A stretch of DNA of 64,000 bases from positions 62,001-126,000 of the forward strand of contig NZ_CAJHAR010000006.1 in assembly GCF_904846415.1 (NCBI RefSeq), in the 5' to 3' direction. The translations under genes were made by a program, and so were the position numbers. Below the pieces are notes generated by a model. The model did not search any database and was not told the DNA's origin. It saw only the letters and a program-made list of their open reading frames with translations. Origin of the DNA: Psychrobacter piscatorii (GTDB lineage: Bacteria; Pseudomonadota; Gammaproteobacteria; Pseudomonadales; Moraxellaceae). Shown piece by piece: positions 19,409-25,511 of the stretch. Every line of letters begins with the position of its first letter. Within the stretch, counting starts at the first letter, position 1.

Positions 19409-20671
19409 CTATTGATTTGCCATCCGATTGAGATTGGCTTTTATATCATGAATAACCTGATTTGATAATTCTTTCTCAATGTTATGATCTTTAATAACAG
19501 TCAAAAAGTCCTCAGCAACTGATGCTACCTGATCAATAATAGCTTGTGCCTTGTTTCGCTTAATATCAGCTTGCTTCGCCAATTTTAGTAAGTGAGATCG
19601 GGTAGGGTATTGAGCTTCACCAGTTACATCCATTTGGTGATAACCATTCATACCTGAGTTATAAGCGAGATCATAGACGGGCGATAACGACCACCTGCCA
19701 GCCTCGTCCATCATAAAAGAGAAGTTTTTGCTATGATCGTCTTTATTATTAAAGATGACATTAAATACAGCATGTCTAAAACCCTCTTCTACAGCAACTT
19801 GCGATTGAGTCAACATACGCACGCAGCGCAAATACTGCAAATAATCTATTGAAGGAATGCGAAAGTCAATATCTAACAAACCCGCCAGTGTATGAGTATG
19901 AACGCGTTGATTGCCCATGCGGTCAAAACGCTCAACCCCAAAAGCAGCATGTTGTTTACCGATATCAAAATAATGATGCGCAGGCATGTTTAGGCCTGCT
20001 TGCTTAGCCATATCAGCATAAAGTGACTCTAATAGACAAACGCTTTTATGCTCAGATTGGGCAGGGAACTTAATCAGCCACGGCGTTGCGGATGGCTGTT
20101 CGCTTGTTAAGTCCGTAGCAATAAACTCGGTTGCTTCATCATATAGGACAAGTGCTTTTGGCCTTGCGCCTTGTGGTGAGCCACCAATGACGATGAGCTC
20201 AGCCAGTATGTCACTATCTTGTCCAGATAAAATCGATTGATTGGCAGCGGCTAGTTTAGATAAAGTAAAATCAGTGATATCTATATCAGCGCCTGACAGG
20301 TCTTGTTGTGGCTCAAAGCTAAGCGCACCCATTGCAGAATCACCAATATAAGCCAAACGATCCAAAACATTCACTTGTTGTGCAGAGCTGTCCATAAATT
20401 TGCGAAAAAACCTATCCATTAGTAGCATTCCCCAACCATCGGGTAAGCTGTCTGATAATAATCCGCATAAGTAATGGCTCGACGCATGAGTACCATAATA
20501 CGGTGCTGCTCGTAATGGCATCTCAATGGGTGACAGCTCCAGTCCATCAGCCAGCCACGCTGCATCATAGCCAAAGGTAGGGCGTCGCCCATCCATTGTT
20601 AATTTACCGATAAGACGTTTGTCCCCGAATCCCTGGTAGTAAATATTGACAATTGATATCGGTTGATACAC
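19409..20671 (-). CDS. HipA-family serine/threonine kinase toxin
   Basis: The protein (420 residues) has the HipA N-subdomain followed by the kinase fold. The phosphate-binding loop with the autophosphorylation serine is GGSPQGARPK (Ser165). The catalytic FNNKDDHSKNF (about 308-317) and metal-binding SPVYDLAYN (about 330-338) motifs are intact. E. coli HipA phosphorylates glutamyl-tRNA synthetase and causes growth arrest. It starts with GTG at 20671 (AAGG nine bases upstream), 18 bp after the stop of its HTH antitoxin gene. Some HipA-family kinases act on other targets, so the substrate is open. Confidence 0.9.
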   Translation of the reverse strand: MYQPISIVNIYYQGFGDKRLIGKLTMDGRRPTFGYDAAWLADGLELSPIEMPLRAAPYYGTHASSHYLCGLLSDSLPDGWGMLLMDRFFRKFMDSSAQQVNVLDRLAYIGDSAMGALSFEPQQDLSGADIDITDFTLSKLAAANQSILSGQDSDILAELIVIGGSPQGARPKALVLYDEATEFIATDLTSEQPSATPWLIKFPAQSEHKSVCLLESLYADMAKQAGLNMPAHHYFDIGKQHAAFGVERFDRMGNQRVHTHTLAGLLDIDFRIPSIDYLQYLRCVRMLTQSQVAVEEGFRHAVFNVIFNNKDDHSKNFSFMMDEAGRWSLSPVYDLAYNSGMNGYHQMDVTGEAQYPTRSHLLKLAKQADIKRNKAQAIIDQVASVAEDFLTVIKDHNIEKELSNQVIHDIKANLNRMANQ

Positions 20672-20689
20672 TGAATTGGTTACCTTATG

Positions 20690-20995
20690 TCAGCTTTTAT
20701 TTGAGGCACGCAAGCGCGAATTTTTCTTAGCGATAACCTCTTCTATGTTGGTAGGTACTATATCAAACAATTCAGCAAAGTGATGGACCATGCCAAGCCC
20801 CATAGCGAGCCTGATCACGTTATCTAATGTACCGCCTTGACCTGATTCAATGCGAGCTACAGTGCTGACGCCAATACCTGCCTTCTCTGCTAAGGCGGCT
20901 TGTGTTAAGTTTAATGCCAATCGCTGCGTTTTTAAGCGTTCACCTAAAATCTCGGCAATCTCACTTGGCGTATAAAAATCAAACCTTACATTCAT
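20690..20995 (-). CDS. HipB-family helix-turn-helix antitoxin
   Basis: The protein (101 residues) has an XRE-type helix-turn-helix: LKTQRLALNLTQAALAEKAG, then GVSTVARIESG, at about residues 17-55. HipB proteins bind the cognate HipA kinase and repress their own operon. It precedes hipA by 18 bp on the same strand, in the usual antitoxin-first order. I saw no clear operator palindrome in the AT-rich DNA upstream. Confidence 0.88.
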   Translation of the reverse strand: MNVRFDFYTPSEIAEILGERLKTQRLALNLTQAALAEKAGIGVSTVARIESGQGGTLDNVIRLAMGLGMVHHFAELFDIVPTNIEEVIAKKNSRLRASNKS

Positions 20996-22866: not shown

Positions 22867-23367
22867 TTAGATTAAATGCTTACTGATACGATCATCAAAC
22901 ATAATCATAAAACGATTAAGAGCAGCCGTCCAGTTACGAATTGGCAACGACCACTTTTTGGATACCTGCTGGGTGGCTAAGTACACCACCTTGAATGCGG
23001 CTTGATCAGATGGGAACACCTTACGCTTATTCACCGCCGTCCGAATGAGACTATTCAGTGATTCTATAGCATTGGTGGTATAAATGGCTGTTTTAATGTT
23101 TTTAGGATACTCAAAGAACACCGTTAAGCCCTCCCAGTTGCTGCGCCAAGACTTGACCACGTGCGGGTATTTATTATCCCACACCTTATCGAAATGCTCA
23201 AGATCGGCCTCTGCTATCTCAAGCGTATCAGCGCCGTAGATGGTCTTTAAATCAGCCCCTACTACTTTAGCGTTGGGATAGACGGTATTAATGTCATCAG
23301 GGAAGCCTCTTAAACCATCGACAAAGGCAATGAGGATACCTTGTACTCCACGGTTTTGTATTTGCAT
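22867..23367 (-). pseudogene. IS256-family (mutator) transposase, C-terminal remnant with internal deletion
   Basis: The frame encodes 166 residues: NRGVQGILIAFVDGLRGFPD with one catalytic Asp, then VVKSWRSNW, then TTNAIESLN and the C-terminal end. After INTVYPNAK it jumps directly to DLKTIYGA; the usual ~25-30 residues with the QLCIVHMVRNSL-type motif are missing. The 5' half is also gone. It can not be an active transposase. A terminal repeat lies directly after its stop (22835-22864). Confidence 0.85.
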
Positions 23368-23369
23368 CA

Positions 23370-23900
23370 GTGGTAGATGAATACTGTCTTGACGCGCTGA
23401 ACGATATTTTTAGCTATAGCGTACCGTGGCAGGGCAGTCAGTCTGTTGTCGAACGTTTTACCAAGCTAAATGGTTTGGTAGTGCTTAGACGTGATGATGA
23501 GGCCTTGTCAGACAGGCTGATACGGATTATCTATGCCAATTGGCAAGCGCTGGCAAGTGAGCGCGGGCTGGGATTTTTGCAGTTTGTTCTTGATATGCTA
23601 TACCCCAAACAAAATGAAATTGTGAGGCTTTGGCACTCTAAATCCTTAGCGCACAAATACCCCTCATATCTGACCGATACCGCGCGTATAGATAGATTTT
23701 TGACCAGTCGTATTCGTATTAAACTTGATGCAGTGGTAAATATCTGCGAGCTGTCAGAGCTTGCTCCTACATTATCACGGCTTGTGCTGTGGCAGGTTGT
23801 GCCAGAGATTGCGGTTAACCTACCATCAACTCAGAATATGGACGTCAAGGTTGCGGTGGCTGGCGAGGTTATCGCAGTAGCTGATTTTTCCCCTTTTTGA
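23370..23900 (+). pseudogene. Unidentified gene fragment, possibly prophage-derived
   Basis: The frame encodes about 176 residues but has only a GTG without SD at the 5' side, right at the border with the IS256 remnant, so it is probably a 3' fragment. I do not recognise the family with certainty. Its mix of segments (ERGLGFLQFVLDMLYPKQ, RLWHSKSLAHKYPSYLT) is reminiscent of phage structural proteins. It is placed between two mobile-DNA remnants in the island. Confidence 0.4.
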
Positions 23901-23917
23901 AATATTTAAGAATAAAT

Positions 23918-23946
23918 TTGACATCTCATAACCCTAGGGTTATATT
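23918..23946 (+). promoter_or_regulatory. hicAB promoter
   Basis: TTGACA (23918-23923) and TATATT (23941-23946) are separated by exactly 17 bases, a near-consensus sigma-70 promoter. The first operator palindrome fills the spacer. Confidence 0.85.
23928..23943. promoter_or_regulatory. hicAB operator 1
   Basis: ATAACCCTAGGGTTAT is a perfect 16-bp palindrome between the -35 and -10 elements. It is repeated without change at operator 2. It is probably bound by the ribbon-helix-helix domain of HicB. Confidence 0.8.
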
Positions 23947-23960
23947 GTACTTAATAATTT

Positions 23961-23976
23961 ATAACCCTAGGGTTAT
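23961..23976. promoter_or_regulatory. hicAB operator 2
   Basis: This is an exact second copy of the 16-bp palindrome, centred 33 bp (about three helical turns) from operator 1 and placed near the expected transcription start. Confidence 0.8.
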
Positions 23977-24018
23977 GGTTGTTATAATAAAAATGAATTT
24001 TGATTATAGGAGGTTTTT

Positions 24019-24186
24019 ATTAAGTCATCCGAGCTTATAGATATGCTCATAGCAGATGGATGGTATTGGGTCGCCGCTAAGGGTAGTCATTTTCAGTACA
24101 AGCATAAAACTAAAAAGGGCAGGGTTACTGTCCCACACCCTAAAAAAGACCTACCGAAAGGTACTGTTAATAGTATTTTCAAATAA
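24019..24186 (+). pseudogene. hicA: HicA mRNA interferase toxin, start codon and C-terminus damaged
   Basis: The frame encodes KSSELIDMLIADGWYW, KGSHFQYKH and TVPHPKKDLPKGTVNS, a clear HicA with the active-site His (GSHF). A perfect AGGAGG (24008-24013) precedes it by five bases, but the codon where ATG is expected is ATT. A TAA at 24184 replaces what looks like a Gln codon: after it the frame continues AGLK then TGA, the usual HicA end. Both look like point mutations, so the toxin is probably inactive or only weakly made (ATT can initiate rarely). HicA toxins cleave mRNA through a dsRBD-like fold. Confidence 0.8.
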
Positions 24187-24222
24187 GCTGGATTGAAATG
24201 ATCCAGTGGCTTTAGCAATAGT

Positions 24223-24251
24223 TAGCTTTGTTTGCAAACGAAGCTAACGTT
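24223..24251. other. Hairpin between hicA and hicB
   Basis: An almost perfect palindrome (GTTAGCTTTGTTTGC, then AAACGAAGCTAAC) lies in the 158-bp gap between hicA and hicB. The usual gap in hicAB is short, so this gap and hairpin are unusual; no T-run follows. Confidence 0.4.
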
Positions 24252-24344
24252 TGACTACAGCTAACTTGTAAATACTAATAAAAAATCTGTTTTGAAATAA
24301 TCTATACCGTTGAATTAATAAAACCTATATAAAGGAGTCTAGCC

Positions 24345-25008: not shown

Positions 25009-25511
<503 letters not shown>

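Follow-up and report, generated by a model that had tools for sequence, protein, structure and literature searches.

Within the stretch of DNA analysed here, which is 64 kb long and is called the window below, a HicAB toxin–antitoxin operon carries what its sequence indicates to be a new twist on a known system. The toxin gene hicA appears to start with AUU throughout one Psychrobacter clade, pointing to control at the start codon as in infC and sigR, and in the window strain the gene bears a private truncation in addition. The reading that we favour, with reasonable although far from complete confidence, is a HicAB operon with an AUU-initiated toxin that is held at a low level, probably repressed by IF3, with HicB in excess and with the toxin of this particular strain probably crippled by a stop codon.

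The hicAB operon, its promoter, and its stem-loop

The locus is a real type II HicAB toxin–antitoxin operon with the toxin gene first, and its parts are listed in Table 1. HicA matched the Pfam profile PF07927 (2.3e-19) over positions 2–54 of 58, and the domain was further supported by phmmer matches of a relative's full-length protein to the solved HicA proteins 6g26 and 4c26. The match of HicB to PF15919 (1.2e-44) covered positions 1–123 of 123, indicating that the adjacent antitoxin gene is intact; this gene lies outside the stretch to which the sequence-only reading referred (23918–24186). A search of NCBIfam returned no family for either HicA or HicB. When the whole window genome (3.5 Mb in 120 contigs) was searched with both window proteins, a single HicB match and a single HicA match were obtained. 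Judged by HicB, its nearest named relatives were Psychrobacter. The window genome is designated L001 and the loci of relatives are labelled from L002 onward, each locus being turned to the hicB strand.

Table 1. Annotated features of the hicAB locus (positions in the window)
Feature	Position	Strand	Support
Promoter P1: TTGACA, 17 bp, TATATT	23918..23946	+	11/12 consensus; kept in L002–L006
Operator 1, exact 16-bp palindrome within the P1 spacer	23928..23943	.	Sequence scan; putative
Operator 2, identical palindrome, 33 bp downstream of operator 1	23961..23976	.	33-bp spacing kept in L031–L035 and L111; putative
TATAAT, possible second -10 element	23983..23988	+	By eye; no good -35; TACAAT in L002, L004, and L006
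Shine-Dalgarno AGGAGG of hicA	24008..24013	+	Anti-SD pairing -10.9 kcal/mol
ATT, inferred hicA start codon	24019..24021	+	ATT in 6/6 clade genomes
hicA toxin gene, 55 codons + TAA (five relatives: 59 or 60 codons)	24019..24186	+	PF07927 2.3e-19
Remnant of the original hicA 3' end (A G L K stop), lying past the premature stop	24187..24201	+	
Stem-loop between hicA and hicB	24207..24263	+	z -4.4; L005 counterpart z -5.6; 5/23 pairs changed on both sides
Shine-Dalgarno AAGGAG of hicB	24332..24337	+	-8.2 kcal/mol
hicB antitoxin gene, ATG start, 136 aa	24345..24755	+	PF15919 1.2e-44; phmmer to solved HicB 6g1n and 4p78

Remains of mobile elements were observed around hicAB, namely a piece of a Mutator-family transposase (22867–23364, minus strand) and an integrase-core piece (25021–25419, plus strand). 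A gene at 23370–23900 (plus strand), which matches phrog_4620 (unknown function), is part of the same patch. The DNA from 23405 through hicAB is common to the window and L031, L032, L033, and L035. Elsewhere in the window, a hipBA-like pair was found on the minus strand (19412–20995), consisting of a HipA protein (PF07804 and PF13657) and an HTH_3 protein encoded before it.

The sequence-only reading had described a near-consensus promoter with two exact 16-bp palindromes about three helical turns apart, one of them inside the spacer, and our analysis agreed on both points. TTGACA (23918–23923) and TATATT (23941–23946), separated by 17 bp, match the consensus at 11 of 12 positions; as a scan of the stretch called two promoter-like sites where 2.0 were expected, the promoter match alone is little proof. 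The palindrome ATAACCCTAGGGTTAT occurs at 23928–23943 and 23961–23976, and these are its only two copies in the 64-kb window. The two copies are spaced by 33 bp, about 3.1 helical turns, and the first overlaps the -10 element by 3 bp.

The operators were compared in 11 loci (L031–L039, L044, and L111), and in every one of them the palindrome was found at least once when up to three mismatches were allowed. The operator ran into TATATT or TATAAT in nine of these loci, with poorer -10 matches in L039 and L044. Two operators exactly 33 bp apart were present in six loci (L031–L035 and L111) and a single operator in the rest, and in L034 both operators were altered in sequence with their spacing unchanged. 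One of these loci, L111, is an IMG/VR provirus contig with a hicAB pair of its own, comprising a HicB that is 78% identical and an ATG-started hicA. The kept sequence and spacing support the view that the palindromes would be a real operator pair. We infer that HicB, whose DNA binding we take to be of the ribbon-helix-helix type, would bind both of these predicted operators and thereby shut P1.

Between hicA and hicB, a long hairpin is predicted in a 71-nt stretch, for which one of 200 shuffles was as good. The corresponding intergenic region of L005 has a different sequence and a similar shape; of the 23 pairs in the window hairpin, three are broken in L005 besides those changed on both sides (Table 1). 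Four of five covariation measures beat all 500 shuffles and the fifth (further pair types) did not (419/500), all of the change coming from one lineage. In L007, the stem-loop was not seen by eye. A dispersed repeat was considered; the genome holds one full copy, and two further pieces of 15 and 19 bases are at chance level. A terminator was considered as well, with no plus-strand site called between the genes and a weak minus-strand site at 24206–24188. A role of the stem-loop in mRNA processing or in favouring hicB is speculation.

The start codon of hicA

According to the sequence-only reading, hicA is doubly damaged, the first damage being an ATT in place of ATG five bases after a perfect AGGAGG. 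Both elements are present (Table 1). HicB was searched in 195 genomes ranging from genus to order and was matched in 51 of them, and six of the 195, including that of the window, had HicB at 97–100% identity. At the position of the hicA start, each of them has ATT: the window, Psychrobacter sp. 1044 (L002/L032), an uncultured isolate (L003/L033), P. aquimaris DSM 16329 (L004/L031), Psychrobacter sp. bablab_jr014 (L005/L034), and P. immobilis Liston1000 (L006/L035). In the HicB tree, the six proteins formed one clade with support of 100/99, and the loci closest to them outside the clade, L007 and L111 (the provirus contig), had hicA with ATG. The sequences thus indicate that ATT is ancestral to the clade, held by descent rather than through recent damage, and a strain-specific lesion is ruled out by its presence in six of six clade genomes. 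Comparing hicA in related strains, as had been suggested earlier, gave a different outcome for the two changes, as all five relatives share the ATT start and none has the stop, which is private. When viral contigs were scanned by exact pattern for further members with ATT, no match was obtained. In plasmids, tblastn gave 691 records, one at 60–80% identity and 690 below 60%, with none at 97% or more as in the clade.

To describe selection on the gene, L004 and L005 were compared, both of which have ATT and which are the most diverged such pair. Across hicA codons 2–60, 25 of 177 sites differed, 14 synonymously and 11 nonsynonymously (dS 0.52, dN 0.08, and dN/dS 0.16). With 140 nonsynonymous and 37 synonymous sites, the binomial probability of 11 or fewer nonsynonymous differences among 25 was 1.3e-4. 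In a simple neutral model run 5000 times with the synonymous divergence set to the observed value, a stop arose in 4494 runs, and no run showed so small a number of differences. For HicB of the same pair, dN/dS was 0.02. Codons 2–8 of hicA alone contained two synonymous and three nonsynonymous differences, too few to show selection there. The test is of one diverged pair; L001–L004 and L006 are almost identical to one another, and a recent exchange of the locus among them may have taken place. These results show that purifying selection maintained the open frame of hicA in the ATT pair; provided that ATT had a single origin, in the clade's ancestor, it was the ATT-started gene on which selection acted. 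The description of hicA as doubly damaged therefore lacks support, since ATT is common to all six Psychrobacter genomes in which this hicAB was found and the most diverged ATT pair is under purifying selection.

The surroundings of the ATT codon were then considered. An in-frame TAG at 24007–24009, 12 nt upstream of ATT, closes the upstream frame, and the next in-frame ATG downstream is at 24043, which is codon 9. Ahead of codon 9, five of the six clade genomes lack any ATG, GTG, or TTG in frame; the sixth, L034, has one such codon, a GTG that precedes ATT by two codons and falls within the Shine-Dalgarno sequence itself. Anti-SD pairing before ATT amounted to -10.9 kcal/mol in L001–L004, -11.5 in L005, and -11.7 in L006, and that before the codon-9 ATG to between -1.9 and -2.2 kcal/mol. 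Among relatives with an ATG-started hicA, the pairing was weak in L008 (-4.1), L009 (-2.4), and L011 (-4.2) and strong in L007 (-12.7) and L012 (-10.0). The folding of the RNA around the hicA start was not unusual (z +1.18). At AUU, ribosomes would be expected to initiate HicA synthesis only infrequently. The earlier suggestion that the toxin is made at a very low level from ATT is the better supported of the two readings then offered, given that ATT is clade-wide and that the most diverged pair of ATT genes shows purifying selection.

Two other accounts of the ATT codon have to be weighed. If hicA were a decaying pseudogene in the whole clade, both changes would be lesions and ATT the first hit, in line with the stop in the window gene and with loci of other species where hicB is intact and its hicA partner defective or absent (among 80, three with the domain start out of frame and seven with no HicA found). 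We consider this quite improbable, because five of the six ATT genes have an uninterrupted frame as far as the normal end and retain, like the sixth, the strong Shine-Dalgarno sequence, and because a dN/dS of 0.16 (P 1.3e-4) was almost never resembled in neutral simulations. Alternatively, translation might begin at the ATG at 24043, perhaps by re-initiation after a short upstream frame (23993–24040), giving a HicA without its first eight residues. That frame, from ATG 23993 to TAG 24038–24040, does end 2 nt before ATG 24043, and the ATG at codon 9 is found in six of six clade genomes. However, pairing there is weak, whereas AGGAGG stands five bases before ATT; the ATG of the upstream frame is missing in L005; the Pfam HicA profile is matched from residue 3 on; and L007 has the codon-9 ATG together with an ATG start, so that the former is not special to the ATT clade. 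A start at codon 9 is hence given a small probability, and initiation at AUU remains the reading that we prefer.

The start codons of relatives were counted in two sets of loci. In the 70 alignable of 80 HicB-linked loci from related genomes (L031–L110), hicA started with GTG in 41, ATG in 22, ATT in five, ATA in one, and TTG in one, whereas hicB started with ATG in 79 of the same 80 and, by eye, with GTG in the remaining one. In the order-wide set of 90 HicA loci, 38 were dropped as the profile match began after position 2 and one gave no hit; the 51 alignable loci comprised ATG 21, GTG 15, ATT five, TTG two, and other codons eight. Three of these five ATT loci belong to the window clade (one being the window), and the other two, L257 and L266, have ATG three codons upstream. 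Seven of the eight loci with other codons have a standard codon further upstream, and for L238 none was seen in the scanned stretch. In the dropped rows L253, L295, and L299, no standard codon was seen, L299 having by eye a GTG one base out of register. The 51 alignable order-wide loci thus contained no clear near-cognate hicA start outside the clade, with no clear assignment for L238 among them or for L253 and L295 among the dropped rows. Near-cognate starts as a general habit of HicA were rejected by the counts in the 70 and the 51 loci. These counts are descriptive, as they refer to sets of mutually related loci rather than to a genome-wide baseline of start codons. They suggest that, in this subfamily, the toxin gene frequently begins with a weaker codon than its antitoxin gene does, ATT being the extreme. 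The single ATA is that of P. urativorans (L010/L038), on a branch apart from the ATT clade. Its pairing with the Shine-Dalgarno sequence is weak (-2.9) and TTG and ATG codons follow shortly after, and this ATA may be a lesion or a misplaced start.

The premature stop in the window strain

The second damage named by the sequence-only reading, a stop in place of a Gln codon five residues from the end, was found as described: TAA is at 24184–24186, where the five relatives encode Gln and continue for another five residues. Their hicA frames comprise 59 or 60 codons, and the premature stop occurs in the window genome alone. The window HicA ends four residues before the conserved AGL end and five before the end of its relatives, so that the complete C-terminus is absent in the window strain and present in five relatives. 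None of 68 surveyed HicA tails ends before AGL (of 70 alignable; L069 and L074 lack the domain end in frame), and the two best solved HicA relatives end exactly at AGL.

We infer from this comparison that the truncated HicA would be weakened or dead. In the window strain only, the nonsense mutation would remove the last five residues and leave an autoregulated antitoxin with a probably weak or inactive toxin. The earlier proposal that the cell keeps antitoxin and control while disarming the toxin is therefore plausible for the window strain alone, because the stop is private and none of the 68 tails is as short; it does not extend to the clade. It could be argued that the 55-residue HicA is still an active toxin and the system a working, merely shortened one, in that the tail alone is lost and the core is intact with its GSH stretch, the histidine of which serves as the catalytic residue of HicA. 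Against this, all 10 other HicA proteins compared carry QAG[IL] after the truncation point, no surveyed tail ends as early, and both solved relatives reach AGL. We regard continued activity as unlikely, if a contingency to be reckoned with, and a crippled toxin in this strain is the reading carried forward.

An intact hicB with a hicA that is frame-shifted, stopped, or not found upstream was observed in L045, L049, L050, L051, L053, L063, L064, L070, L072, and L077. In terms of the profile, 10 of the 80 loci had a HicA start in a different frame (three) or no HicA (seven), and C-terminal remnants were recovered by tblastn in L049 and L070. As the loci were collected by a HicB search, this count covers hicA beside hicB, and hicA without hicB is outside its scope. 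Where hicB is retained, its neighbour hicA seems to have degenerated repeatedly. In P. glacincola (L036), an internal stretch of HicA is altered. A passage in PMC12654330 places orphan HicB among the prevalent orphan antitoxins of marine genomes.

Comparison with known systems

The gene infC, which encodes IF3, is the classical AUU gene, and IF3 discriminates against such codons. All 40 Psychrobacter genomes searched contained infC. Its start was ATT behind AGGAG in all 30 read by script (31 examined, L305 giving no clear call), and in none of these 30 did the open frame include a standard start codon further upstream. Set beside IF3-controlled near-cognate genes, hicA keeps its codon in six of six clade genomes and, in five of these, is free of any standard start ahead of codon 9. 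If the analogy applies, the AUU start would keep the level of HicA lower than that of HicB: discrimination by IF3 against AUU would repress HicA further, ATG-started HicB would stay in excess, and a drop in IF3 activity would allow more toxin synthesis. More tentatively, and with slightly less than even expectation, we suggest that hicA may use an infC-type AUU switch, in which IF3 would set toxin synthesis and a lower level of IF3 relative to ribosomes would free the toxin, leaving the ATG-started antitoxin unaffected.

We know of no toxin gene shown to be under AUU/IF3 control. Among the papers listed in a literature search on toxin–antitoxin systems with AUU, non-canonical, or GUG starts and on Psychrobacter hicA, none concerned a near-cognate toxin start. 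If true, a conserved AUU-started toxin gene would be a simple way of holding a toxin below its antitoxin, and it would predict a link between the fidelity of translation initiation and toxin release. A gene caller that accepts only ATG, GTG, and TTG might overlook such toxins or truncate them, and the antitoxin might then be labelled an orphan.

Like other type II HicAB systems, the locus has the toxin first and the antitoxin second, both Pfam profiles, and palindromic putative operators at the promoter. Unlike them, it has an ATT toxin start, an intergenic spacer that measures 143–191 nt in the clade and includes a predicted stem-loop, and, in the window, a toxin five residues short. PMC4245954 contains a description of E. 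coli infC and pcnB with an AUU start. hicA resembles these genes in its predicted AUU start behind a good Shine-Dalgarno sequence, with infC starting at ATT in the same genus, and it differs in that its product is the toxin of a two-gene operon and its link to IF3 is by analogy. In the Streptomyces pair sigR–rsrA, as outlined in a part of PMC5472188, the GTC start of sigR is repressed by IF3 and the inhibitor is thereby in excess; the same part states that experimental characterisation exists for very few near-cognate starts. In both pairs the potentially harmful partner would have the near-cognate start and the inhibitor not. Unlike hicAB, sigR–rsrA is a sigma/antisigma pair with GTC, shown by experiment, and the two have no sequence relation. 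For E. coli hicAB, a section of PMC5535158 reports that the toxin is translated less than the antitoxin and, citing Turnbull and Gerdes 2017, that a second promoter yields a transcript with a weakened ribosome-binding site of the toxin. Thus, E. coli hicAB lowers its toxin via a second promoter, and hicAB of the Psychrobacter clade would, by analogy, do so via the start codon.
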